From Halobacterium sp. R2-5 (GTDB lineage Archaea > Halobacteriota > Halobacteria > Halobacteriales > Halobacteriaceae), in assembly GCF_011734195.1 (NCBI RefSeq), contig NZ_JAANTH010000001.1:434001-498000 (forward strand): a stretch of 64,000 bases of DNA, in the 5' to 3' direction. Shown here piece after piece: positions 40,629 through 57,116 of this stretch. Positions within the stretch are counted from its first letter, which is position 1. Every line of letters starts with the position of its first letter. The position numbers and the translations under genes were made by a program. The notes beneath the pieces are model-generated. The model was not told the DNA's origin and made no database searches. It saw only the letters and a program-made list of their open reading frames with translations.

Positions 40629-40823
40629 ATGCTCCAATCAGTAGACGAGGCGGTCCAGCGACTCGACGACGTCCGCCCGCTCGTTCGACCGACGTACAAC
40701 GAGTTCGAAGTCCGACTCCTCCCCCCGTACGGCGACCCCGAAGTCCACATTCCCGGCGAGTTCGGCACCTACGTCGCCACCGGCGTCGTCCTCGGCGCCG
40801 CCGCCGAACTCCTCGACGAGTGA
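40629..40823 (+). CDS. Small protein, possibly HalOD1-related (64 aa)
   Basis: I take the ATG at 40629, which suits the TATA element about 30-40 nt upstream; a longer in-frame start at 40560 would overlap the operator. The 64 residues MLQSVDEAVQRLDDVRPLVRPTYNEFEVRLLPPYG then DPEVHIPGEFGTYVATGVVLGAAAELLDE form a small alpha/beta unit with no membrane segment. It resembles short haloarchaeal output-domain-like proteins, but the resemblance is weak. Confidence 0.6.
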   Translation: MLQSVDEAVQRLDDVRPLVRPTYNEFEVRLLPPYGDPEVHIPGEFGTYVATGVVLGAAAELLDE

Positions 40824-40968
40824 CGCTGACTGCAGACGACTGACGCGTTTCGACTGTCGCTCCTCCTCGTGGATACGAGCTCTGTGAGCCTGCTCACCGT
40901 GCTACGGCCGCAGGAACGTATTCAGGACGGAGCGAACGCTCGTCGAATCGAAATCGCGTAGAATCGGG

Positions 40969-41064
40969 ATGCCGCCTCCCCGATTTGAACGCCGTGAGAC
41001 GTGCTCGCTGCGCTGCGCGCGACTCACGAGCTCAAATCGGGTCGGGAGCAGTTTCACTGCTCCC
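40969..41064 (-). repeat. Displaced tRNA-Phe 3' end with hairpin core
   Basis: The 23 bp at 40969-40991 are identical to 41080-41102, the 3' end of tRNA-Phe, 111 bp away in the same orientation. An inverted T-arm copy lies at 41032-41041 (pairs with 40979-40988). Between them the core holds GACGTGCTCGCT (40998-41009) and CGCTGCGCGCG (41011-41021), also found beside tRNA-Arg and tRNA-Met. A further 9-bp perfect hairpin, 41044-41052/41056-41064 (loop TTC), follows. Confidence 0.85.
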
Positions 41065-41080
41065 CTCGTTCGCAGGAAAA

Positions 41081-41154
41081 TGCCGCCTCCCCGATTTGAA
41101 CGGGGGACAGCTCGATCTTCAGTCGAGTGCTCTCCCAGTCTGAGCTAAGGCGGC
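41081..41154 (-). tRNA. tRNA-Phe (anticodon GAA)
   Basis: This is a 74-nt minus-strand cloverleaf: acceptor GCCGCCT with AGGCGGC and discriminator A, anticodon loop CTGAAGA (GAA) on stem CTCGA/TCGAG, T arm CCCCG-TTCAAAT-CGGGG. No intron and no encoded CCA. A displaced copy of its 3' end lies 111 bp further along. Confidence 0.95.
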
Positions 41155-41242
41155 TCGCAGTCGAGACGACGGCAGTTGTAGGAAAAAGCGTTTCGAATCG
41201 GCGCGGGGCGGCGGGACGGCCGTGTCGCTCGGTCAGTCCGGG

Positions 41243-42583
41243 TCAGTCGTCGGACGGCGCCGTGCTCGTGACGTATACCGAGGGCTGCCGGCGCACGAAC
41301 TCCGCGACGAACGCGGTGGCGACGGCCAGCGCCTGCAGCGCGAAGTACGGCCACAGGAGCAGCGGCGCGGCGTACTCCACGCGGTCGTGGCGGCGGCCGT
41401 CCCGATAGTCGAGCGCGAACAGCAGGGACGCCGCCAGAATCGGCCCGAGCGCGACCCACGCCCACAACGGCGCCGTAGTCGAGCCGAGCGGGAACTGCCC
41501 GGCGGCGTAGACCCACGCGACCGCCAGCAGCGGCGACGCCAGCGCGACGAGCGGGAGCAGGACGACGGCCGCCAGCGTCAGCGCGAAGTCCACGCGAGCC
41601 CGTAGCGGCGGCGGGTCCGATGTGAGCCCCGAATCGAGGTGGCGGCGCGCGACCTGCATCCCGCCGCGGGCCCACCGCTGGCGCTGGCTCCACCACGCGG
41701 ACAGCGACGCCGGGTTCGTCTCCCGGGTGACCACGCCCGGGTCGACGCGAATCTCGCCGCCCGCGCGCCGGACGCGGTACGCCATCTCCACGTCCTCGAT
41801 GAGAACTGACTCGTCGAACGGCCCGATCTCGTCGAGTGCGGACGCCCGGAACAGCGCCTGACCGCCGGTGAACAACGCGAAGCCGCCGACGAGGTCGCGG
41901 ACGTAGAACTCCGTGCGCTCGACGAGCCCGCGCTCGACCGTCGCGCACAGGGACAGCAGCGAGTCACCGGGATTCGTCCCGAAACACCGCCCCTTCACGC
42001 ACCAGACGTCGTCGTCCTCGAACCACCGGACGGCCCGCCGGAGCGCACCACGCTCGGGGCGCTGGTCGGCGTCCAGCACGAACACGACCTCGCCGCCCGC
42101 GCGGTCGAGCGCGTAGTTGGTCGCGGCCGCCTTGCCGCCCGGCGGCGCGGGTCGCTCCACCGCAACCACACGCTCGTCCGCGCTCACGAGTTCCGCCGCA
42201 ACGTCGCCGGTGCCGTCGGTCGACGCGGCCTCGTAGCCCACGACGACCTCCAGTTTCTCGCGCGGGTAGTCGACCTCCAGACACGCCTCGACCGTCTCTG
42301 CGAGCACGTCGGCCTCGTTGTACGCGGTCACGAGGACGCTCACCGTCGGGAGTTCGGAATCCGGCGGCTCCGCGGGCGGCTCGCGGCGGACGAACGCCAG
42401 CAGCGCCGCTGCGACCGCGCGCGTCGACAGCGCGAGTCCGAACAGGAGTATCGCCGTTGCTCCGACCCGCGCGTATCCCGGGAGGAGGACGCCTGGCGCG
42501 ACCAGCACGGCCGACAGCGCACCCGCAACCGCGGCGGTCCGTGCGTCCCCGGACCACGACCCGTCGGGCGTCGACACTTCCAT
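41243..42583 (-). CDS. Membrane glycosyltransferase, family 2
   Basis: From the ATG at 42581-42583 the protein has 446 residues: two N-terminal membrane segments (residues 12-60), a GT2 domain with VTAYNEADVL, VVFVLDADQRP (DxD), LIEDVEMAYRVRRAG and QRQRWARGG (a QxxRW processive signature), then four C-terminal membrane segments. It probably makes or extends a surface polysaccharide or a lipid-linked glycan. It stands alone between two tRNA genes. Products cannot be named. Confidence 0.85.
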   Translation of the reverse strand: MEVSTPDGSWSGDARTAAVAGALSAVLVAPGVLLPGYARVGATAILLFGLALSTRAVAAALLAFVRREPPAEPPDSELPTVSVLVTAYNEADVLAETVEACLEVDYPREKLEVVVGYEAASTDGTGDVAAELVSADERVVAVERPAPPGGKAAATNYALDRAGGEVVFVLDADQRPERGALRRAVRWFEDDDVWCVKGRCFGTNPGDSLLSLCATVERGLVERTEFYVRDLVGGFALFTGGQALFRASALDEIGPFDESVLIEDVEMAYRVRRAGGEIRVDPGVVTRETNPASLSAWWSQRQRWARGGMQVARRHLDSGLTSDPPPLRARVDFALTLAAVVLLPLVALASPLLAVAWVYAAGQFPLGSTTAPLWAWVALGPILAASLLFALDYRDGRRHDRVEYAAPLLLWPYFALQALAVATAFVAEFVRRQPSVYVTSTAPSDD

Positions 42584-42660
42584 CGTCTCCCGTAGACCGC
42601 AGCCGCCCGGAAAGTTACCGAGAGGCTTCACAGCCGTGGCTGTCGCTTACTGGTGTGTAG

Positions 42661-42774
42661 AGTGGGTTCGGGCGGATTTTGAACCGAAGCGAGACTCACT
42701 TCGTTCGTCTCGCAGGGTTCAAATCGCCCTCACCGCACAAGCTGAGCGACGCGAACGGCACGGAGGCCGTTCGC
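42661..42774 (-). repeat. Displaced tRNA-Val 3' end with hairpin core
   Basis: 42661-42679 repeats 42788-42806 exactly (end of tRNA-Val plus flank), then carries one extra T before GAACC. Its T arm (42670-42685) pairs with an inverted copy GGTTCAAATCGCCC at 42716-42729. The core is a 7-bp stem GCGAGAC/GTCTCGC enclosing TCACTTCGTTC, which matches the loop of the tRNA-Met element. An 8-bp hairpin follows at 42751-42758/42767-42774. Confidence 0.8.
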
Positions 42775-42789
42775 GATCGCGTAATACAG

Positions 42790-42863
42790 TGGGTTCGGGC
42801 GGATTTGAACCACCGACCTCGGCCTTGTAAAGGCCGCGTCATGACCAACTAGACCACGAACCC
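42790..42863 (-). tRNA. tRNA-Val (anticodon TAC)
   Basis: This is a 74-nt minus-strand cloverleaf: acceptor GGGTTCG with CGAACCC and discriminator A, anticodon stem GGCCT/AGGCC around TTTACAA-type loop (anticodon TAC), T arm with TTCAAAT. No intron. A displaced 3'-end copy lies 127 bp downstream. Confidence 0.95.
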
Positions 42864-42945
42864 TCGTCTCACGGAAGTCGCGCCGCGGCCTAAACCGTTT
42901 CCTTTCGGCGGAACGTCCAAACCCCGGGCCGTCGTAGGCCCTGCC

Positions 42946-43449
42946 ATGAGTTGGCGCACGCTCGCGGTGGTCTGCCTGCTGGTCGTCGCCGGCTGCGCGG
43001 GGCTCTCCGCGGACTCGACGACGACGCCGGATGCGACGACGAACGCGGGAACTGACGCGGCGACTGCCGACGACCGGACCCGTGTCTACATCGAGGACGA
43101 GAACGGCACCGAACTCGGGAGCGCCACGGTCGAACTCGCGGAGACGCAGAGCGAGCGGTACACGGGCCTGAGCGAGCACGAGTCCCTCGGCGACGACGAG
43201 GGGATGCTGTTCGTCTACGACCAGGAGGGCCACCACACGTACGTGATGCGCTCGATGTCGTTCCCCATCGACATCGTGTACGTCGGCGCGAACGGCCGCA
43301 TCACGCGGATTCACCACGCGCCTGTCGAGGAGGACAACGAGGACCTCACGGGCTACGAGGGCGTCGGGAAGTGGGTGCTCGAAGTCCCGTACAACTGGAC
43401 GATCGAGCACGGCGTCGAGGTCGGCGACCGCGTCCGTATCGAGGACTGA
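42946..43449 (+). CDS. DUF192-family lipoprotein
   Basis: The 167-residue protein begins MSWRTLAVVCLLVVAGCAG, a signal peptide with lipobox VVAGC, then a Thr/Asp-rich linker. The remaining residues match DUF192: ATVELAETQSERYTGLSEHESLGDDEGMLFVYDQEGHHTYVMRSMSFPIDIVYVGANGRI, then GKWVLEVPYNWTIEHGVEVGDRV. Its biochemical role is not known; the fold binds to the outside of the membrane here. It precedes an ABC exporter gene by 82 nt. Confidence 0.88.
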   Translation: MSWRTLAVVCLLVVAGCAGLSADSTTTPDATTNAGTDAATADDRTRVYIEDENGTELGSATVELAETQSERYTGLSEHESLGDDEGMLFVYDQEGHHTYVMRSMSFPIDIVYVGANGRITRIHHAPVEEDNEDLTGYEGVGKWVLEVPYNWTIEHGVEVGDRVRIED

Positions 43450-43531
43450 CTCGGGGACTGCTCGACGTCTCCGGGGTTGTTTCGATTCGTAGGGAAGTGT
43501 TTTTGTCCAGTCGTCACTTCTCCCAAGAAGA

Positions 43532-45445
<1,914 letters not shown>

Positions 45446-45497
45446 CCTCGCTGCCGGGAGGGCAGGCTACAAACCGCGGCGGTGCATTGGGCCGCGT

Positions 45498-46235
45498 ATG
45501 CGACTCGCGGACGCGACCTGGACGGACGCCGACGCCGCCGACACGGACCTCGCGCTCCTGCCGGTCGGGAGCACCGAACAGCACGGCCCGCACGCGCCGC
45601 TCGGCACCGACCACGTCACCGCCGAGACCGTCGCCGAGACCGCGGCATCGAACTACGACAGCGAGGTCGTCGTCGCGCCGCCGCTGACCGTCGGCGTCTC
45701 CGAGGAGCACCGCCAGTTCACGGGGACGCTGTGGCTCTCCCCGGAGACGTTCCGCGCGAACGTCCGGGAGGTGGTCGCGAGCCTCGCGAGCCACGGCTGG
45801 GACCGCGTCGTCGTCGTGAACGGCCACGGCGGCAACGCCCCCGCGCTCGGCGAAGTCTGCCAGCGGATCACCCGCGACGGCGACGCGTACGCGGTGCCGT
45901 TCACGTGGTTCGACGCGGTCGGCGACCACAGTTCGGACATGGGCCACGCCGGCCCGCTCGAAACCGCGTTCCTCCGGCACGCGCACCCGAAGCTCGTCCG
46001 CGAGGACCGCCTCGACGAGGCCAGAGAAGGTGCCAGCGACCGCTGGGGGGAGTGGCAGTCGCACGCCAACCTTGCCGTGGACTCTGCGGAGTTCACGGAG
46101 AACGGCGTGGTTGGGGATCCGACCGACGGCGACGCGGACCGCGGCGAGGAACTGCTGTCGCTGGCCGTCGACTCGCTGTGCGGCCTGCTGGACGCCGTCG
46201 CCGACCGGGACACGAGCCGGCCGCCGCACAAGTAG
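45498..46235 (+). CDS. Creatininase-family amidohydrolase
   Basis: The 245-residue protein has creatininase motifs: LLPVGSTEQHGPHAPLGTDH (Glu and His metal ligands), GVSEEHRQFTGTLWLSP, VVVVNGHGGNAPAL and DMGHAGPLETA. Relatives include creatininase, the mycofactocin peptidase MftE and the archaeal formylamide deformylase ArfB of riboflavin/F420 synthesis. An ArfB-like role is plausible in this lineage but is inference; no pathway partner adjoins it. Confidence 0.85.
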   Translation: MRLADATWTDADAADTDLALLPVGSTEQHGPHAPLGTDHVTAETVAETAASNYDSEVVVAPPLTVGVSEEHRQFTGTLWLSPETFRANVREVVASLASHGWDRVVVVNGHGGNAPALGEVCQRITRDGDAYAVPFTWFDAVGDHSSDMGHAGPLETAFLRHAHPKLVREDRLDEAREGASDRWGEWQSHANLAVDSAEFTENGVVGDPTDGDADRGEELLSLAVDSLCGLLDAVADRDTSRPPHK

Positions 46236-46685
46236 TTACGCTTCGTCTTCCTCGTTCTCGTCGTCGTCCGCGCTCTCCGCTTCGTCCTCGCCGCCCTCGT
46301 GGGCGTCTTCGAGCGCCGAGCGGAGCTCCGGAATCGTCGACGCGAGCTCGCCGACCTGCTCGCGGGCGGTCTCCAGGTCGCCGAGCACGCCCTCGACGGC
46401 CTCGATTTCGGCTTCGAGGTCGTCGGCGTCCTCGAAGGCGTCCGCGCGCTCGCCCACGACGAACGCCTTCTTCGCGTCCCGGAGGTGTTCCTCGACGTCG
46501 CCCGTGTCGAGCGCCGAGCGCAGCGCGTTCAGCACGCCGAGCGTGTTGTCCGCGTCGACGGTCCAGACGTCGTCGGCGGCCGGCAGCTGCTCGCGGGCGG
46601 CGTCCAGGTGCTCCTCGACGTCGGCGCGCATCTCCTCGGCGGCCTCGCCGAACAGTTCGTCGTCGTCGAGCGATGACTGACTCAT
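46236..46685 (-). CDS. Acidic helical protein of the DUF5790 type
   Basis: The 149-residue protein is almost entirely charged helix: SLDDDELFGEAAEEMRADVEEHLDAAREQLPAADDVWTVDADNTLGVLNALRSAL, then HLRDAKKAFVVGERADAFEDADDLEAEIEAVEGVL, ending in an acidic tail. I recognise it as a conserved haloarchaeal family that I recall as DUF5790. A helical-bundle or coiled-coil adapter role is possible; function unknown. Its stop abuts that of the creatininase-family gene. Confidence 0.7.
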   Translation of the reverse strand: MSQSSLDDDELFGEAAEEMRADVEEHLDAAREQLPAADDVWTVDADNTLGVLNALRSALDTGDVEEHLRDAKKAFVVGERADAFEDADDLEAEIEAVEGVLGDLETAREQVGELASTIPELRSALEDAHEGGEDEAESADDDENEEDEA

Positions 46686-46745
46686 GTCCCGTGATTCGCC
46701 CGCATCTGATTTAAAAGCACGCCCCGTGGCGGACGTGAACGCGGC

Positions 46746-47072
46746 TCACTCGACGCTCGCGAGCTCCATGAGCGGGTACCCCTCGTGCATCGCCATCTCC
46801 GCGACGACCTCGCTGCCCTCGTAGTCGACGACCACCTCGACCTCCATGTACTCGCCCGTCAGCTCCGTGTAGCCGTGCTCGGTGTCCAGCTTCTCGGTGA
46901 GGATGTCCACTGTCACGGACTCGCAGAACGGCTGGTTCTCGATGGACTCCTCGATAGCGGTCTCCAGGCTCGGCGCGCTCTCCGGGCTCACGGGCGTCCC
47001 CGCGAACTGGTGGTAGAGCGCGCCGAACTTGATGCCCGCCTCGAAACACGCCTGCTGGGCCTCGGTTGCCAT
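46746..47072 (-). CDS. mptD: Archaeal dihydroneopterin aldolase (MptD type)
   Basis: The 108-residue protein matches the small archaeal aldolase that cleaves dihydroneopterin to 6-hydroxymethyl-dihydropterin in pterin or folate synthesis. Segments are ACFEAGIKFGALYHQFAGTPVS, AIEESIENQPFCESVTVDIL and YTELTGEYMEVEVVVDYEGSEVVAEM. Length fits the family. Confidence 0.82.
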   Translation of the reverse strand: MATEAQQACFEAGIKFGALYHQFAGTPVSPESAPSLETAIEESIENQPFCESVTVDILTEKLDTEHGYTELTGEYMEVEVVVDYEGSEVVAEMAMHEGYPLMELASVE

Positions 47073-47180
47073 ACCCGTGCCGTCGGCCGGCCGGGGCTAA
47101 TCGTTGTCGCCTCGCGCGCTCGCGTCGCTCGCCCGCGAATCGCATGTTTCATTGCGTCGCTCTTCCAGACTCCCAATCGA

Positions 47181-47948
47181 ATGGACGAACCGGTCCTCCT
47201 CACGGGCGCCGCCGGGCGCGTCGGGCAAGCCATCCTCGACGGCATCGGGGACGACTACGAGTGGCGGCTGTTCGACCGCGAACCGCCGACCGGTGACGTC
47301 GACCACGAGACCGTCGTCGGCGACATCACCGACGAAGACGTCGTCCGCGACGCCGTCGACGACGTCGGCGCCGTCGTCCACCTCGCCGGCGACCCCCGGC
47401 CCGAGGCTCCGTGGGAGAGCGTCCTCCGGAACAACATCGACGGCACCCAGACCGTCCTCGACGCCGCCGTCGACGCGGGCGTCGAGAAGTTCGTGTTCGC
47501 GTCCTCGAACCACGCGGTCGGCCACTTCGAGACCGAGCGCAAGCCCGACCTCTACAAGCGCGACCACGACTACCGCCTCGACGGCTCCGAGCTCCCGCGG
47601 CCCGGCAACCTCTACGGCGTCTCGAAGGCCACCGGCGAGACGCTCGGCCGGTACTACCACGACGAGCACGACCTCTCCTTTGTCGCCGTCCGCATCGGCA
47701 ACCTCACCGCCGGTCACCCGCCCATCGACTACGAGCGCGGGCAGGCGATGTGGCTGTCGCCGCGGGACTGCGCGCACCTCTTCGACTGCTGTCTGCGCGC
47801 GGACTACGGCTACGAGATCGTCTACGGCATCTCCGACAACGACAGGAAGTACTACAGCCTGGAGCGCGCCCGGGAAGTGCTGGGGTACGACCCCCAGGAC
47901 AACTCCGCAGAGTGGGACGGCGACGAGCGGGTCCCCGACGCGGAGTAA
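47181..47948 (+). CDS. azf: NAD-dependent glucose-6-phosphate dehydrogenase (Azf)
   Basis: The 255-residue extended-SDR protein starts MDEPVLLTGAAGRVGQAIL (cofactor loop TGAAGRVG) and has the catalytic Tyr-Lys in NLYGVSKATGE. VRIGNLTAGHPPIDYERGQAMWLSPRDCAHLF, YEIVYGISDNDRKYYSLERA and LGYDPQDNSAEW closely fit the haloarchaeal archaeal-zwischenferment, which feeds the oxidative pentose phosphate pathway. Its last 128 bp are repeated downstream in the same frame (47969-48152) with only synonymous changes seen and a 57-bp insertion. Confidence 0.88.
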   Translation: MDEPVLLTGAAGRVGQAILDGIGDDYEWRLFDREPPTGDVDHETVVGDITDEDVVRDAVDDVGAVVHLAGDPRPEAPWESVLRNNIDGTQTVLDAAVDAGVEKFVFASSNHAVGHFETERKPDLYKRDHDYRLDGSELPRPGNLYGVSKATGETLGRYYHDEHDLSFVAVRIGNLTAGHPPIDYERGQAMWLSPRDCAHLFDCCLRADYGYEIVYGISDNDRKYYSLERAREVLGYDPQDNSAEWDGDERVPDAE

Positions 47949-48158
47949 TTCGGCCGTTTCTCCTCGACCGGCTACGAGATCGTCTACGGCATCCTCGCGA
48001 GCGAAGCGAGCGAGGGCTCGACAGGCGAGGGAAGCGAGCCTGTCGGCGTCTCCGACAACGACAGGAAGTACTACAGCCTGGAGCGCGCCCGGGAAGTGCT
48101 GGGTTACGACCCGCAGGACAACTCCGCGGAGTGGGACGGCGACGAGCGGGTCGACTGA
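47949..48158 (+). pseudogene. Displaced second copy of the azf 3' end with palindromic insert
   Basis: 47969-47993 and 48051-48152 repeat 47807-47934 of azf. The copy remains in the azf reading frame beyond the stop and ends at its own TGA (48156-48158). Three base changes are visible (GGG/GGT, CCC/CCG, GCA/GCG), all synonymous. Between the two parts lie 57 bp (47994-48050, 19 codons) rich in GCGAAGCGAGC-type palindromes, including GACAGGC/GCCTGTC. The stretch lacks its own start and is not an independent gene. Confidence 0.85.
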
Positions 48159-48249
48159 CTCTCGAATCCGACAGACCGCCCGATAGCGGGGAGTTCACGT
48201 TCGTTCACTCACAGATGGATTTATACGTACGAGCGCGTAATCTTCCCCT

Positions 48250-49086
48250 ATGCGACACATCGGACTCAAAGTACGGATGGCCATCGTCGGCACCATCCTC
48301 TTCGCGTTCTACTCTCTGGCGGTGCTGGCAGCCTGGGCGTTCTTCGGCCAGACCACCACTATCCTCGGCATCGCCATCGTCGGTAGCATCCTGCTCGTCG
48401 GCGTCCAGTACAAGATCGGCAAGTGGGCGGCGTTACGCAGCGTCGGCGCCGAGGACATGGACGAACGGCAGTACCAGCAGATCCACCAGTTCGTCGAGAA
48501 GGTCTGCCGCGAACGGGACCTGAAGAAGCCGAACCTGAAAATCGCGAGCATGGGCGTGCCGAACGCGTTCGCGGTCGGCCGCCGCGGCAACGGCACGGTC
48601 GTCGTCTCCCGCGAGCTCATCCAGCTGCTCGACCGCGACGAACTCGAGGGCGTCATCGCCCACGAGCTCGCGCACATCGACAACCGCGACGTCGTCATGA
48701 TGGTCCTCGGGCAGGGAGTCGCGTCGGTTGTCGGCATCGTCGCCCAGTACATCGTCCTGTTCACGGGCGACAACGACCTCGCGGACTTCTTCCTCGCCAT
48801 CGTCGTCGGCAACCTCGTGCAGTTCCTCGTGATGCTGTTCGTGCTCGCCATCTCCCGGTACCGCGAGTACGTCGCGGACGCCGACGCCAAGCGCATCATC
48901 AACGGCGGCGACCCGCTCGCCCGCGCCCTCGAGAAGATCCAGCAGGGCAACCAGCGCTCCCGTGACTCCAAGATCGACGAGAACGTGAACGCGCTGTGCA
49001 TCTTCGGCGCGGACCGCGGCCTCCTCCAGAAGCTCGTCTCCACGCACCCGCCCACGGAGAAGCGCATCCAGCGCCTCCGCTCGTAG
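48250..49086 (+). CDS. htpX: Membrane zinc protease HtpX (M48)
   Basis: The 278-residue protease has two N-terminal membrane segments (residues 10-32 and 36-53), the zinc site HELAH at residues 138-142, two further membrane segments and the third ligand Glu in SRYREYVADADAKR. It degrades damaged membrane proteins. Length is normal. A small membrane-protein gene starts directly at the next base, so the two are co-transcribed. Confidence 0.93.
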   Translation: MRHIGLKVRMAIVGTILFAFYSLAVLAAWAFFGQTTTILGIAIVGSILLVGVQYKIGKWAALRSVGAEDMDERQYQQIHQFVEKVCRERDLKKPNLKIASMGVPNAFAVGRRGNGTVVVSRELIQLLDRDELEGVIAHELAHIDNRDVVMMVLGQGVASVVGIVAQYIVLFTGDNDLADFFLAIVVGNLVQFLVMLFVLAISRYREYVADADAKRIINGGDPLARALEKIQQGNQRSRDSKIDENVNALCIFGADRGLLQKLVSTHPPTEKRIQRLRS

Positions 49087-49323
49087 ATGGCCGGGGTTCG
49101 CGAACTCCTCGCGGTCGTCCTCGGCGCCGCGCTCGGACTCGCGATGATTCTCGCGCCGCGAGCGGCGCTCCAGCTCTCCGTCTTCGTGGGCCCCCAGCGC
49201 CGCCGCCGCGGCGACTACGGCAACGACGAACCCATTCCCGACTCGTGGGTGTGGGTCGTGCGCGCGCTCGGCGTGGCCTGCATCGCCGTCGCCGGCGTCA
49301 TCGCCTACCAGACGTACGCCTAA
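49087..49323 (+). CDS. Small membrane protein following htpX (78 aa)
   Basis: The ATG is the first base after the htpX stop. The 78 residues contain two hydrophobic helices (ELLAVVLGAALGLAMILAP and SWVWVVRALGVACIAVAGVIAY) joined by an Arg-rich loop (GPQRRRRGDYGNDEPIP). Coupling to htpX suggests a membrane quality-control accessory, which is inference. Its stop overlaps the end of the DUF309 gene by 4 nt (convergent). Confidence 0.75.
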   Translation: MAGVRELLAVVLGAALGLAMILAPRAALQLSVFVGPQRRRRGDYGNDEPIPDSWVWVVRALGVACIAVAGVIAYQTYA

Positions 49324-49931
49324 TCGAACAGCCCCGCCACGTCCTCTTCTCGCCGCTGCCGCCGCTGTACGTGCTGTCGCAGCCGCGTCGCGACGAGCGC
49401 GCGCTGCTCGGGCTCGGTCGCGAAGTCACAGAGCAGCACGCCGAACTCGTTGAGCTCCCCCTCAGTTAGCCCTTCACGCGCGTACTCCGCGCCCGTCTCC
49501 ACGAACGCCTCGTCGTAGCCGAGGTCCTCCGCGAGCGCGACCGCGGCCTCCACGCCCGCCGGCGCGTCGAGGCCGTCGAGGTCGAGCGCGCGCCCCTCGT
49601 ACGTCAGCGACGGCGGCTCCGCGCGCTCGATTCGCTCCGGGTCCGCCGCGAGCGCGTCCGCGTACGCTCGCACCGTATCCACGTTCACGTCGCGGTAGTC
49701 CGCTGGAAGCCCGTTGAGGTACTCGCCCGCGCTCTCGCAGAGGCCGACTGCGCCCGCCCAGTTCCGGTCGCGGGCGTGGTGGACGGCCGCCGAGAACTGG
49801 ATGAGCCCGTGGAGCAGTCGCTCGTCGTCGCCCTCGTCTAACGCCAGCCACTCCGCCTCCCACGCGTCGTGGGCAGCGTGGTAGTGGCCGGCGTTGTAGA
49901 CCGCGATACCCGCGCGCAGCGCCGCGTCCAT
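49320..49931 (-). CDS. DUF309-domain protein
   Basis: The 203-residue helical protein has the DUF309 pattern near its start: ALRAGIAVYNAGHYHAAHDAWEAEWLALDEGDDERLLHGLIQFSAAVHHARDRNW, with conserved His-x-x-x-Glu-like residues that may bind metal. The remainder is acidic helix ending in QRRQRREEDVAGLFD. Function unknown. Confidence 0.82.
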   Translation of the reverse strand: MDAALRAGIAVYNAGHYHAAHDAWEAEWLALDEGDDERLLHGLIQFSAAVHHARDRNWAGAVGLCESAGEYLNGLPADYRDVNVDTVRAYADALAADPERIERAEPPSLTYEGRALDLDGLDAPAGVEAAVALAEDLGYDEAFVETGAEYAREGLTEGELNEFGVLLCDFATEPEQRALVATRLRQHVQRRQRREEDVAGLFD

Positions 49932-49970
49932 ACGGCGGGTTCGCCCGCCACGCGCAAACGCGTTTCGTCC

Positions 49971-50726
49971 TCAGGCGTTGTTCATCGACGACGGCCACGC
50001 GCTCACGAACGGGAGGGAGGCCGTCAGCAGGTACGCGCTCTTCCGCACCGCGCCCTTCGTGTACTGGCGCGTGCTCCGGTGAACCGGCGTGCGCTTCCCG
50101 CGGATGTCCGTCTCTCCCGCGCGCAGCGCCGACAACACGTCCTCGGTCGCGATTTCGCCCGGCGGCGTCCCCGCGTCGACGTCCGGCAGCGCGACGTCCG
50201 TGTACGCCCGCCCGACGTTCCGAATCGAGTGCGCGTCGCTCGCGCCGAACCGCGGGTAGTCGTGCTCTTCCGCGAACGTCCGCGCGCGCCGGTTCCGGTA
50301 GCCCGTGAACACCATCGAGTTGTACACTTCGATGCCGTCGCAGTCCCCGACGTTCTTCCGCCGGACGCCGTGCCGGCTCCGCTGGAACGGATGCGGGACC
50401 ACGGCGACGCCGCCCTGCTCGCGAATCCCGGTCACGGTCGCCTCGAACGGCCGGCCGCGCTCCGGGCGCTCCTCGACGCCGATGGCCAGCAGGTGGCCCG
50501 CCGCCGTCGACACCTCCACGCCCGGAATCCCGACGAGCCCGTACTCCGGCGCCAGCTCCGCCGCGTACAGCGACTCCTCGATCTCGTCGTGGTCGGTGAC
50601 GACCACGCCGTCCAGCCCGATGTCGCTGGCGTGCTCCAGGATGAGTTCCACCGGCTCGCTCCCGTCGTACGAGCCCTCCGAGTGGACGTGCGGGTCGATT
50701 GACAGCACCGCCCGGTCCTCGTTCAT
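49971..50726 (-). CDS. PHP-domain phosphoesterase
   Basis: The 251-residue protein has the PHP metal ligands: IDPHVHSEGSYDG (HxH), VVVTDHDEIE, GIPGVEVSTAAGH, VVPHPFQRSRHG and FGASDAHSIRNVG (D-x-H). Such domains hydrolyse phosphate esters (histidinol phosphate or nucleotides) or serve polymerases; here it stands alone. The C-terminal tail (KGAVRKSAYLLTASLPFVSAWPSS) is mildly hydrophobic. The substrate is not predictable. Confidence 0.85.
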   Translation of the reverse strand: MNEDRAVLSIDPHVHSEGSYDGSEPVELILEHASDIGLDGVVVTDHDEIEESLYAAELAPEYGLVGIPGVEVSTAAGHLLAIGVEERPERGRPFEATVTGIREQGGVAVVPHPFQRSRHGVRRKNVGDCDGIEVYNSMVFTGYRNRRARTFAEEHDYPRFGASDAHSIRNVGRAYTDVALPDVDAGTPPGEIATEDVLSALRAGETDIRGKRTPVHRSTRQYTKGAVRKSAYLLTASLPFVSAWPSSMNNA

Positions 50727-50864
50727 CGCCGGCCCCTATACGGCCCACAGTCAAGTACTTCGTGCCCGACACGGGTCGCCACAGCGGAACTACTGACGCT
50801 CTGACTGTTCGCGGTAGGTGGGCGACACAGCGGTCGCTCGCGGTCGTGGGTTCGAAGGGATTAG

Positions 50865-51108
50865 CGTCCGGACGGAGTCGCCGAGCTTGCTCGGCGGCAC
50901 AGTAGACCGGCGGTCTACTGGCGTCCGCGCGAGCGTCGCGAGCGCGGGCCCGTCGGTCGTTTTGAGCGAGCGCTAGCGAGTGAAAAACGTCCGGACGGAG
51001 ATTTGAACTCGCCCAGACGTGCTCGCTTCGCTGCGCGCGTCTGGTCTGCTCAAATCTCCTGACGATAATACGCGCTGTACGACGCGAGAGCTACAGAGGG
51101 CTCTCGCG
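50865..51108 (-). repeat. Two displaced tRNA-Arg 3' ends with palindromes
   Basis: 50988-51010 repeats the tRNA-Arg 3' end (51131-51153) over 23 bp, and 50865-50877 repeats its last 13 bp again. The first copy forms GGAGATTTGA (50997-51006) with inverted TCAAATCTCC (51050-51059) around the core CCAGACG/CGTCTGG, which contains GACGTGCTCGCT (51016-51027) and CGCTGCGCGCG (51029-51039). Perfect hairpins lie at 50879-50896 (loop TT), 50900-50920 (loop GGC) and 51083-51108. No gene is seen between 50727 and 51130. Confidence 0.85.
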
Positions 51109-51130
51109 GTCGTAGCGTCGAGAGAAGTTA

Positions 51131-51203
51131 CGTCCGGACGGAGATTTGAACTCCGGTCCCTGGCTCCGCAAGCCAAGAGGATAGTCCACTACCCTACCCG
51201 GAC
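51131..51203 (-). tRNA. tRNA-Arg (anticodon GCG)
   Basis: This is a 73-nt minus-strand cloverleaf: acceptor GTCCGGG with TCCGGAC (one G-T), discriminator G; anticodon stem TTGGC/GCCAA around TTGCGGA (anticodon GCG); T arm CGGAG-TTCAAAT-CTCCG. No intron. It is followed downstream by two partial copies of its 3' end. Confidence 0.94.
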
Positions 51204-51294
51204 TCACTTTTTCGTAGCCCCGACTTACGTAAAGCGGTTACGATTCGGGGGTGGCGCGGGAAGGTTCTTCACTTTTCAGAGCACACCCGAACTT

Positions 51295-51741
51295 ATGCAA
51301 CGAAGGTCGCTGCTCGCGGTGGTGCCGGCGCTGGTCGTCGCCGGCTGCACGAGTCCAGTTGGAGACAACGGGACGGAGTCAGAGACGAGCTACGAGGACA
51401 CCGACTTCGCTGTCACCGCGGCCGAGTGCGGGACCGAGCGCGAGGCAGCCAGCGTCTCGTTCGACGCCGAGGCGGCGACCGTCACAGTCGAGGGGACGAC
51501 CAGCGGGCCGAACGCGTGTTCCGCCGCGCGGCTCGCGGACGCGAACTACGACGCGGACGCCGACGAGTTCACGCTCGTCGTCGAAGCGTATCGCGAAGAG
51601 GATGCCGACGGCTGCGCGGAGTGCATCATGGAAATCGACTACGAAGCGACGGCGTCGTTCGCCGGGGAGGTCCCCGGGAGCGTCGCGGTCGTCCACGCGA
51701 GTCGCGGGGAGACGCGCGAGGTCGCGACGGCCAGCCCGTAA
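51295..51741 (+). CDS. Small secreted lipoprotein, unknown function
   Basis: The ATG at 51295 gives 148 residues: MQRRSLLAVVPALVVAGCTSP is a signal peptide with lipobox VVAGC and an Arg-Arg that could mark Tat export. The mature part is acidic with cysteines in CGTE, NACSA and DGCAEC, likely forming disulfides outside the cell, and beta-strand-like alternation (EFTLVVEAYRE, CIMEIDYEATASF). I do not recognise the family. Confidence 0.75.
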   Translation: MQRRSLLAVVPALVVAGCTSPVGDNGTESETSYEDTDFAVTAAECGTEREAASVSFDAEAATVTVEGTTSGPNACSAARLADANYDADADEFTLVVEAYREEDADGCAECIMEIDYEATASFAGEVPGSVAVVHASRGETREVATASP

Positions 51742-51859: not shown

Positions 51860-53269
51860 ATGGGCGACGACATCGAGGACGTCTACGGGGACCTCGACAC
51901 CGACGTGTCCCTCGAGGAGTTCCGGGACGCCGTCGAGTCGAAGGTCGAACAGATGGGCGGACTGGCCGACGAGGAGACGGCCGCCATGCTCATCGCCCAC
52001 GAGCTAGAGGACGGCGAGGTCAACGGCGTCGCCGACGTGGAACCGGAGATGGACGAGGTCAAGTTCATCGCGAAGGTGACGAGCATCGGCGACGTGCGGA
52101 CGTTCGAGCGCGACGACGACGAGAACCCGGAGGGCCGCGTGGTGAACGTCGACGTCGCCGACGAGACTGGGAGCGTCCGGCTGTCGCTGTGGGACGAGCA
52201 GGCCGAGGGCGCCAAGGACGAGCTCGAAGTCGGGTACGTGCTCCGCGTGAAGGGCCGGCCGAAGGACGGCTACAACGGCATCGAGGTGAGCGCCGACCAG
52301 ATCGAGGTCGACAACGAGGAGGAGGTCGACGTCCAGGTACAGGACGAGTACCGCGTCGATGACCTCTCGCTGGGCATCTCGGACGTGAACCTCACGGGCG
52401 AGGTGCTCGCGGCCGAGGAGGTGCGGACGTTCGACCGCGACGACGGCAGCGAGGGGAAAGTCTCCAACCTCGTGCTCGGTGACGAGACCGGCCGCGTGCG
52501 CGTCACGCTCTGGGACGACCAGGCCGACACCGCGCCCGACCTCTCGCAGGGCGAGGTCGTGGAGGTCGTGGACGGCTACGTCCGGGAGCGCGACGGCAGC
52601 CTCGAACTCCACGTCGGCGACCGCGGCGCGGTCGAACCCGTCGACGCGGACGTGGCGTTCGTGCCGGACACCACCCCCATCGAGGACCTCGAACTCGACG
52701 ACGTGGCCGACGTCGCAGGCGTCATTCGCTCCGCGGACCCGAAGCGGACGTTCGACCGCGACGACGGCAGCGAGGGCCAGGTCCGGAACGTGCGCGTGCA
52801 GGACGACACGGGCGACATCCGCGTGGCGCTGTGGGGCGACAAGGCCGACCTCGACATCGGCCCCGGCGACGAGGTGGCGTTCGTGGACGTCGAGATCCAG
52901 GACGGCTGGCAGGACGACATCGAGGCGTCCGCGGGCTGGCAGTCCTCGGTCATCCCGCTCGCCGACGGCGCCACGACGGCCGACGACTCGGGCGGCGAGA
53001 CCGGGCTCTCGGCGTTCGAGGACGGGAACCAACCGAGCAGCGCCGACTCGACTGATAGCTCGTCGAGCGACGACGCCGACGCGTCCACGGACGACGGCGA
53101 GGAAGTCGAGTTCACGGGCGTCGTCGTGCAGGCGCAGAACCCCGTGATTCTGGACGACGGCGAGGAGACCGTGAGCGTCGAGACGGACGCGGACGTCACG
53201 CTCGGGCAGGAAGTGACCGTTCGCGGCCTCCTCCAGGACGGCCGCCTGCGCGCCGAAGAACTGCACTGA
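51860..53269 (+). CDS. RPA-type single-stranded DNA-binding protein with several OB folds
   Basis: The 469-residue protein has a helical N-terminus (residues 1-55), then three similar OB folds (about 65-150, 172-262, 275-360), each with a KVTSIGDVRTFERDDDENPEGRVVNV-like start and VRLSLWDEQA-like middle. A Ser/Asp linker (365-415) and a fourth shorter OB fold (415-469) follow. It lacks the CxxC zinc finger seen in some archaeal RPAs. It should coat single-stranded DNA in replication and repair. It resembles the stand-alone RPA2 type of haloarchaea. The histone gene follows on the same strand. Confidence 0.88.
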   Translation: MGDDIEDVYGDLDTDVSLEEFRDAVESKVEQMGGLADEETAAMLIAHELEDGEVNGVADVEPEMDEVKFIAKVTSIGDVRTFERDDDENPEGRVVNVDVADETGSVRLSLWDEQAEGAKDELEVGYVLRVKGRPKDGYNGIEVSADQIEVDNEEEVDVQVQDEYRVDDLSLGISDVNLTGEVLAAEEVRTFDRDDGSEGKVSNLVLGDETGRVRVTLWDDQADTAPDLSQGEVVEVVDGYVRERDGSLELHVGDRGAVEPVDADVAFVPDTTPIEDLELDDVADVAGVIRSADPKRTFDRDDGSEGQVRNVRVQDDTGDIRVALWGDKADLDIGPGDEVAFVDVEIQDGWQDDIEASAGWQSSVIPLADGATTADDSGGETGLSAFEDGNQPSSADSTDSSSSDDADASTDDGEEVEFTGVVVQAQNPVILDDGEETVSVETDADVTLGQEVTVRGLLQDGRLRAEELH

Positions 53270-56472: not shown

Positions 56473-56545
56473 GCCGCCATAGCTCAGTTGGTAGAGCACC
56501 TGGTTGTTACCCAGGTTGTCCCAGGTTCGAGCCCTGGTGGCGGCG
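56473..56545 (+). tRNA. tRNA-Asn (anticodon GTT)
   Basis: This is a 73-nt cloverleaf: acceptor GCCGCCA with TGGCGGC and discriminator G, D arm AGCTCAGTTGGTAGAGC, anticodon loop TTGTTAC (GTT), T arm CCAGG-TTCGAGC-CCTGG. No intron. A 21-bp copy of its 3' end recurs 140 bp downstream. Confidence 0.95.
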
Positions 56546-56820
56546 CTTCTCCGATACTTGCTCGCGGAGCGTCGGCTCCGCGACGAGTTCGGTTGTATCG
56601 CCGCAAGGGCTCGTGCCCGAGAGTCGCAGCCCGCGCAGCACCGCGAGCAGGACCGTCTCTCGACGTTCGAGCCCTGGTGGCGGCGTAAAACTTCGTTTTA
56701 CGTGCTGCCAGACTCCATCTGGTAACGGCGTGAATTTCTACGAAATTCACGGCCCGAGAGACGTAGTCTCTCGACGGCGCTTCTCCGACACTCGCTTCCG
56801 GAGCGTCGGCTCTGCGAAAT
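56546..56820 (+). repeat. Displaced tRNA-Asn 3' end and a chain of perfect palindromes
   Basis: 56665-56685 is identical to the tRNA-Asn 3' end (56525-56545). The flank starting CGGCGCTTCTCCGA at 56541 recurs with changes at 56775. Perfect hairpins follow one another: 56562-56583 (9 bp), 56686-56700 (TAAAAC, loop TTC), 56708-56722 (CCAGA), 56729-56751 (10 bp, loop TAC) and 56755-56773 (8 bp, loop GTA). No gene is seen from 56546 to 56861. Confidence 0.85.
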
Positions 56821-56861
56821 CCCGACAGGCTAAAGGTTCGGCCACGGGAAGCGAACGACGA

Positions 56862-56970
56862 GGGGCCTTAGCTTAGTCTGGTTCAAAGCCCCCGGCTCAT
56901 ATCGGCGCTCGTCCCCGGGCGGGTGTCGTGGGACACCGGGTGAGCGGTGGTTCAAATCCGCCAGGCCCCA
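56862..56970 (+). tRNA. tRNA-Met (anticodon CAT) with a 33-nt intron
   Basis: The gene spans 109 nt. The acceptor GGGGCCT pairs with AGGCCCC, discriminator A. The anticodon stem CCCGG (56891-56895) pairs with CCGGG (56936-56940); the anticodon CAT is at 56898-56900. A 33-nt intron (56902-56934) after position 37 restores a 76-nt tRNA with T arm GGTGG-TTCAAAT-CCGCC. Introns at this position in elongator tRNA-Met are known in haloarchaea. A CAU-anticodon tRNA-Ile is the alternative. Confidence 0.85.
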
Positions 56971-56981
56971 CGTTTCTGTGA

Positions 56982-57116
56982 CGGTGCCGCGCAGCGACGC
57001 GTGTGTCGCTGCGCGCACCGCGCGTAACTGGGGCAGGATTTGAACCCTGGAAGTCGCGCGCAGCGAACGAAGTGAGCGAGCACGTCTTCCTCCGGTTCAA
57101 ATCCGCCAGGCTCCAT
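56982..57116 (+). repeat. Hairpins and displaced tRNA-Met 3' end
   Basis: A strong hairpin lies at 56982-57020 (GCGCAGCGAC with GTCGCTGCGC plus outer CGGTGC/GCACCG, loop 56999-57004), probably terminating tRNA-Met. Then 57094-57111 repeats 18 bp of the tRNA 3' end (56949-56966). Its T arm (57094-57104) pairs exactly with inverted GGATTTGAACC at 57036-57046. The core, read on the minus strand, holds GACGTGCTCGCT (57075-57086) and CGCTGCGCGCG (57055-57065). Confidence 0.85.

Follow-up and report, generated by a model that had tools for sequence, protein, structure and literature searches.

A duplicated azf 3' end with a two-hairpin insert in haloarchaea, a probable trace of a very small non-coding mobile unit, and its tRNA counterparts

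The azf locus of Halobacterium sp. R2-5

The window, i.e., the whole stretch of 64,000 nucleotides of Halobacterium sp. R2-5 analysed here, contains the gene azf (47181-47948), which encodes a protein of 255 aa with an NAD-dependent epimerase/dehydratase fold. This gene and all the features of its locus are on the forward strand. The stop codon of azf is TAA, and azf sequence starts again 20 bases downstream. The proximal copy of the 3' end (47807-47933) is followed by a cassette-specific tail, encoding PDAE and the stop, and a short spacer (together 47934-47968), which are similar in four Halobacterium species. Then comes a second copy of the left piece of the repeat (47969-47993; 25 bp, 25/25 identical to 47807-47831), an insert of 57 bp made of two hairpins (47994-48050), and the displaced native 3' end of azf with its own stop (48051-48158), which is collinear with the empty sites of congeners. 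Positions 48051-48152 are a second run of 47832-47933 and end in another tail, GACTGA. The repeat thus amounts to some 127-128 bp (25 + 102 bp) interrupted by the insert. The copies show three differences in the 99 bp after the insert, all synonymous. The original prediction of an azf 3' end repeated after the stop, with a palindromic insert of 57 bp, is therefore borne out by this sequence, and the arrangement recurs in the set of nine genomes, R2-5 included, described below.

The first hairpin of the insert (47994-48014) reads CTCGC-GAGCGAAGCGA-GCGAG and the second (48020-48044) GACAGGC-loop-GCCTGTC. Their apical loops are of the type GA-NCGNAGN-GA, the loop of hairpin 2 being GAGGGAAGCGA in R2-5. 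Such loops with an outer stem of at least four pairs occur 14 times in 464 kb of this genome, compared with 0-1 in first-order simulations, and all 14 have a complementary inner pair. In the same 464 kb, azf is the sole long open reading frame with a duplicated 3' end. The other local direct repeats of at least 18 bp lie within single reading frames or beside tRNAs, with the exception of a few short intergenic repeats at 126525-127730 of the scanned string. One repeat of 33 bp (window 52423-52776, distance 321) lies inside a frame of 469 aa with repeated domain-like segments. A paralogue of azf (G000:C1:635708-636559, 44-49% identical) lacks the duplication; here and below, G000 is the R2-5 genome, and its relatives carry other G-numbers.

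The insert belongs to a dispersed repeat of haloarchaea. A 65-nt query holding it had matches with an E-value of 1e-3 or better in 100 of the 195 genomes of the order, often several per genome, in a search that scored just four candidates per genome. Besides azf, the repeat is found in intergenic regions and inside reading frames (in a helicase-like frame of G038, as judged by eye, and in G141). In G114, a tRNA-Gly has it within its displaced 3' end. To judge from these matches, the 57 bp are the fixed element length of the repeat, and would not reflect a choice of 19 codons. The repeat consists of two palindromes; we saw no clear target duplication, but the ends of the insertion are ambiguous by a few bases.

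Duplicated azf ends in other genomes

The duplication and its insert are present in 5 of the 13 Halobacterium genomes (G000, G005, G006, G009, and G010) and absent from the other eight. Beyond this genus, Halosimplex salinum has the duplication as well, as do three genomes (G069, G109, and G172) that belong to a single genus of another family, which brings the total to nine genomes in three genera. The insert has 57 bp in eight of these nine genomes and 114 bp in Halosimplex. The unit as a whole has a near-constant length of 206-222 bp, from which Halosimplex deviates through a second insertion. G109 carries two identical units of 206 bp in tandem, which bear a foreign 3' end and precede an end of the native type. 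The tail of the unit is [D/G]AE-stop in seven of the nine genomes, and the native tails are unrelated to it. No large element was found at azf in the sampled genomes. Hairpin 2 of G069 (GACAGAC-GAACGGAGTGA-GTCTGTC) shows paired compensatory changes relative to Halobacterium. Between genera, the hairpins are 84-96% identical, and the gene copies mostly 74-86%.

The original prediction had also proposed that the distal copy was the original one, a second 3' end having been put in upstream of it. Several lines of evidence favour this polarity. The distal end resembles that of the unit-free congeners: in G011 and G002, the terminus of azf resembles the distal copy and is followed by the same flank as in G009, and the proximal tail of the unit is missing at these empty sites. 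The azf of Halosimplex salinum is 85-100% identical to that of H. aquaticum per window of 60 bp, with 83% in the last one, and its terminus, DEKVVDAE-stop, matches that of Halobacterium TGN-42. The distal copy of Halosimplex salinum is Halosimplex-like and decaying, with 11 of 33 codons differing non-synonymously. Both in this genome and in G109, an element-borne end completes the host gene, the proximal end being foreign and the distal one native. Given the collinearity with the empty sites and the chimaeric azf genes, the distal end is, on sequence grounds, the old and native one, and the proximal end was imported with a unit that carries no gene. When compared with the empty-site congeners, the azf of R2-5 is itself a predicted hybrid, whose final ~115 bp would have been brought by the cassette. 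As far as these comparisons go, a foreign proximal end demonstrably becomes coding sequence of the host, and does so across genera.

Hairpin elements behind tRNA genes

The geometry claimed for the tRNA loci, namely an intact gene followed by a spacer, a hairpin, and a displaced 3' end, was recovered in our analysis. Among the 46 tRNAs predicted in R2-5, which include a few spurious ones, 17 have their own last 21 bases copied (at least 16 matching) at +86 to +186; the remaining ones have at most 15 of 21 bases matching downstream. These copies form the 3' strands of hairpins of ~85 nt; the opposite, 5' strands imperfectly complement the T-arm and the acceptor. We built a covariance model, R1, from the 17 hairpins. 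RNAalifold on a MAFFT alignment returned the central stem only, and the structure of R1 was voted from single folds. In the window, the reverse strand carries a hairpin element of tRNA-Ala (661-745; 63.2 bits; tRNA at 808-880) and 3'-end hairpin elements of tRNA-Phe (40970-41048; 63.5 bits; tRNA at 41081-41154), tRNA-Val (42665-42734; 49.4 bits; tRNA at 42789-42863), and tRNA-Arg(gcg) (50988-51066; 56.4 bits; tRNA at 51131-51203). The forward strand carries a 3'-end hairpin element of tRNA-Asn (56599-56685; 56.9 bits; tRNA at 56473-56546) and a hairpin element of tRNA-Met (57028-57115; 74.6 bits), whose intron-containing tRNA starts at 56862. Rfam gave no match above cut-off besides tRNAs in 40800-51300.

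Each of the 13 Halobacterium genomes has between 2 and 32 R1 hairpins, and, within the order, the model has matches in 100 of 116 genomes, which represent 41 of 48 genera. Nearly all the matches that were checked (47/51) have a tRNA 24-221 bp upstream on the same strand, and 38 of these 47 hairpins share at least 16 of 21 bases with the 3' end of that tRNA. Tandem arrays are common. Among 97 distinct sequences, 27 of the 29 pairs have changed on both sides, and cells with double changes number 413 against 156.5 in shuffles, most clearly in the stem that does not derive from the tRNA, although these pair counts lean towards the structure because the alignment was fitted to it. Sliding the alignment by one column leaves 37-49% of the cells paired, compared with 82% beforehand. 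The flank found downstream of the displaced tRNA-Arg(gcg) end in R2-5 comes directly after the tRNA in G005, where the site is empty; this parallels the displaced azf end of G009, whose flank is collinear with the empty site of G011. For the tRNA elements, comparison of the genomes' sequences shows an insertion with a duplicated gene end that is polymorphic between genomes. Plasmids hold just a few repeats of the 57-bp or R1-like kind.

Some of these loci have additional features. At tRNA-Asn (window 56546-56860, and in G004, G005, G006, and G009), there are shorter palindromic modules, e.g., GTGAATTTCTACGAAATTCACGGCCCGAGAGACGTAGTCTCTCGACGGCG, each with a few bases from the tRNA 3' end at its terminus, which gives the impression of a stack of even smaller cassettes. 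At tRNA-Arg(gcg) (window 50880-50990, and in G005 and G001), there is a further mini-hairpin whose end, ACTCCGTCCGGACG, nearly reproduces 14 bases of the acceptor end, and G006 has tandem copies of one hairpin element at this tRNA, identical as far as shown. In G004, an integrated element of 28 kb, whose right end holds a Phage_integrase gene, lies between a tRNA-Lys and its hairpin element (G004:C1:1326250-1354465). In G008 (G008:C1:379000-384000), a hairpin GCATTTGAACC-CCT-GGTTCAATGC followed by GGGAGGCGGCA, the end of a tRNA-Phe, adjoins an R1 hairpin; there is no tRNA within 40 kb upstream, and the locus may be where a large integrated element ends.

The suggestion of one mechanism for RNA and protein genes fared less well than that of a common geometry. 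The two kinds of loci have the layout and the apical loop in common, and the tRNA-Gly of G114 links them as well, but the azf unit fails as a member of the R1 family: it scored 14.4 bits in a search of 1.15 kb, against 46-86 bits at the tRNA loci, and we rejected this assignment. A single mechanism for azf and the tRNA loci is plausible but unproven. Going by the sequences, the tRNA elements are best described as the RNA-gene counterpart of the azf unit, with the same outcome, a related apical loop, and a different family of hairpins.

A mobile unit at azf, its alternatives, and known systems

We consider it probable that a mobile non-coding unit of ~206-222 bp entered azf, recombined at the end of the gene, and displaced the native end downstream. 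This proposal builds on what is observed, i.e., the layout itself, a native end that has been displaced, a proximal end of foreign origin in two genomes, the tandem units, and the occurrence in three genera; the steps of the process are our reconstruction. The unit would comprise an azf 3' end (~100 bp plus the stop), a short spacer, a stretch of 15-25 bp from further upstream in azf, and the 57-bp two-hairpin repeat. It would recombine with the resident azf at GGCATC^TCC, presumably as a circular or equivalent form, such that its own end completes the gene and the native 3' end comes to lie downstream, parted by the hairpins from its upstream piece. Gene conversion between the ~100-bp copies may later keep them alike within a genome, and the hairpins may be a folded site of recombination or processing. 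The ends of the unit are not sharply defined, and its spacers differ between genera.

Entry would most likely rely on a recombinase supplied in trans or on homologous recombination via the ~100-bp copy. A trans-acting site-specific recombinase is likely for the tRNA elements and possible for azf, and it is a candidate only. The 28-kb element of G004 uses a tRNA end of a like kind, and its Phage_integrase gene indicates that a source of recombinase exists in haloarchaea. We found no recombinase linked to the azf unit and no integrase gene within it, for which 206-222 bp leaves no room. The phage records contained neither an azf 3' end nor the core of the tRNA hairpins. The plasmids gave no close copy of the azf 3' end: the matches listed for the C-terminus of Azf have 49-63% identity and carry annotations as NAD(P)-dependent oxidoreductases, which makes them, by sequence, putative paralogues. 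A broader extension of the proposal, which we regard as doubtful, is a haloarchaeal integron-like system of non-coding elements. Hairpins with one strand made of a gene 3' end would there serve as sites for a shared recombinase, which would serially add tiny cassettes downstream of tRNA genes and of a few protein genes, each replacing the end of the gene.

The structure could also spread in the absence of mobile-element machinery, by ordinary homologous recombination with DNA from a donor. In the fullest form of this alternative, which we hold to be somewhat unlikely, the structure arose once and was spread and lost only by recombination between species. Crossovers of the donor would fall in azf and between its distal copy and the single 3' end of the recipient, and recombination between the copies would remove the structure. 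Haloarchaea recombine readily, the junction of the chimaera of Halosimplex salinum lies inside azf, and copies of ~100 bp permit a loss without scars that fits the patchy distribution. However, spacers and tails differ completely among G069, G109, and G172, which belong to the same genus, and this scenario leaves unexplained both the first origin and the identical tandem units.

Phages entering the 3' ends of genes leave a footprint of this type, and the duplicated end might accordingly be the scar of a deleted provirus, or of another larger integrative element, that used the 3' end of azf as its attachment site. Large integrase-coding elements do separate tRNA genes from their displaced ends, such as the one of 28 kb at the tRNA-Lys of G004. 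We nevertheless find a scar improbable: the length of the unit is nearly constant in independent genomes, units occur in tandem, the sampled genomes have no large element at azf, and the phage records lack an azf end.

The original prediction took the common frame and the purely synonymous differences as signs that the distal copy had once encoded a functional C-terminus. The copies are indeed in the same frame in R2-5 (offsets of 162 and 219), a feature that is not conserved across genomes: in seven of them, the offsets modulo 3 are 0, 0, 2, 2, 2, 2, and 1. Several carrier genomes have additional stops or non-synonymous changes in the distal copy, and we rejected a coding constraint on it, since frame and stops vary among genomes. 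The argument from frame and synonymous change does not hold, and concerted evolution fits better. The copies are 90-99% identical within eight of the nine genomes (81% in Halosimplex), as a rule above the identity between species (74-96%). This pattern suggests that the divergence by synonymous changes is better explained by concerted evolution, or by descent from a donor of the same species, with no need for a coding role. That the distal copy is a C-terminal extension of Azf made by readthrough, its in-frame insert and synonymous changes being functional, strikes us as very improbable: the copy is open and in frame with azf in R2-5 and G009, but it is out of frame in five other genomes, several of which have stops or non-synonymous changes. 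Finally, hairpin-bearing tandem repeats pose difficulties for assembly, but the presence of the structure in nine independent assemblies, each with species-specific sequence, means that it is not an artefact of assembly, a possibility that we give practically no weight.

That insertions at azf and at tRNA genes recur across haloarchaea suggests an undescribed class of tiny mobile elements. Most of the sampled genomes have the tRNA form, which can accompany as many as about half of their tRNA genes, and the azf case takes the phenomenon from tRNA genes to a protein gene. These elements bear on how integrases find tRNA ends, on the concerted evolution of gene ends, and on the mobilisation of non-coding DNA in trans.

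We found no account of such elements in the open-access papers searched, and RepRanger names no haloarchaea. The findings in the part of the hypersaline-integron paper considered here come from metagenomes and a bacterium. Like the attC sites of integrons, the tRNA elements have an imperfect hairpin downstream of a gene, with one strand equal to the recombination target, here the tRNA 3' end; unlike them, they have no gene cassette. The attC core GTTRRRY and inverse core RYYYAAC were not found in these hairpins, where the copied tRNA strand is mostly GTTCAAAT or GTTCGAAT. The palindromic elements of Rickettsia (PMC10969869) are bacterial repeats of ~150 bp found in reading frames; by description, the 57-bp repeat resembles them in lying inside frames in G038 and G141, and the azf layout differs in its duplicated 3' end, which is not described for them. 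The PATEs of Haloquadratum walsbyi (PMC3119063) are, in the part of the description considered here, very short non-coding elements with palindromes, without terminal inverted repeats or target duplication, of which a core-deleted form has 52 bp. Going by that partial description, the azf and 57-bp elements are similarly very short, non-coding, palindromic, and haloarchaeal, whereas the PATEs are tied there to transposons of the IS605 type, with no mention of tRNA or gene 3' ends in that part. The azf unit also resembles the prophages and integrative elements that occupy gene 3' ends, as in archaeal tRNA genes (PMC8371274): the incoming DNA supplies the end, the native end is displaced, and the flank stays collinear. 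It differs from them in its length of ~206-222 bp, in coding for nothing, in having a displaced copy split by hairpins, and in forming identical units in tandem. Its counterpart at tRNA genes would rank among the smallest site-directed mobile elements known.
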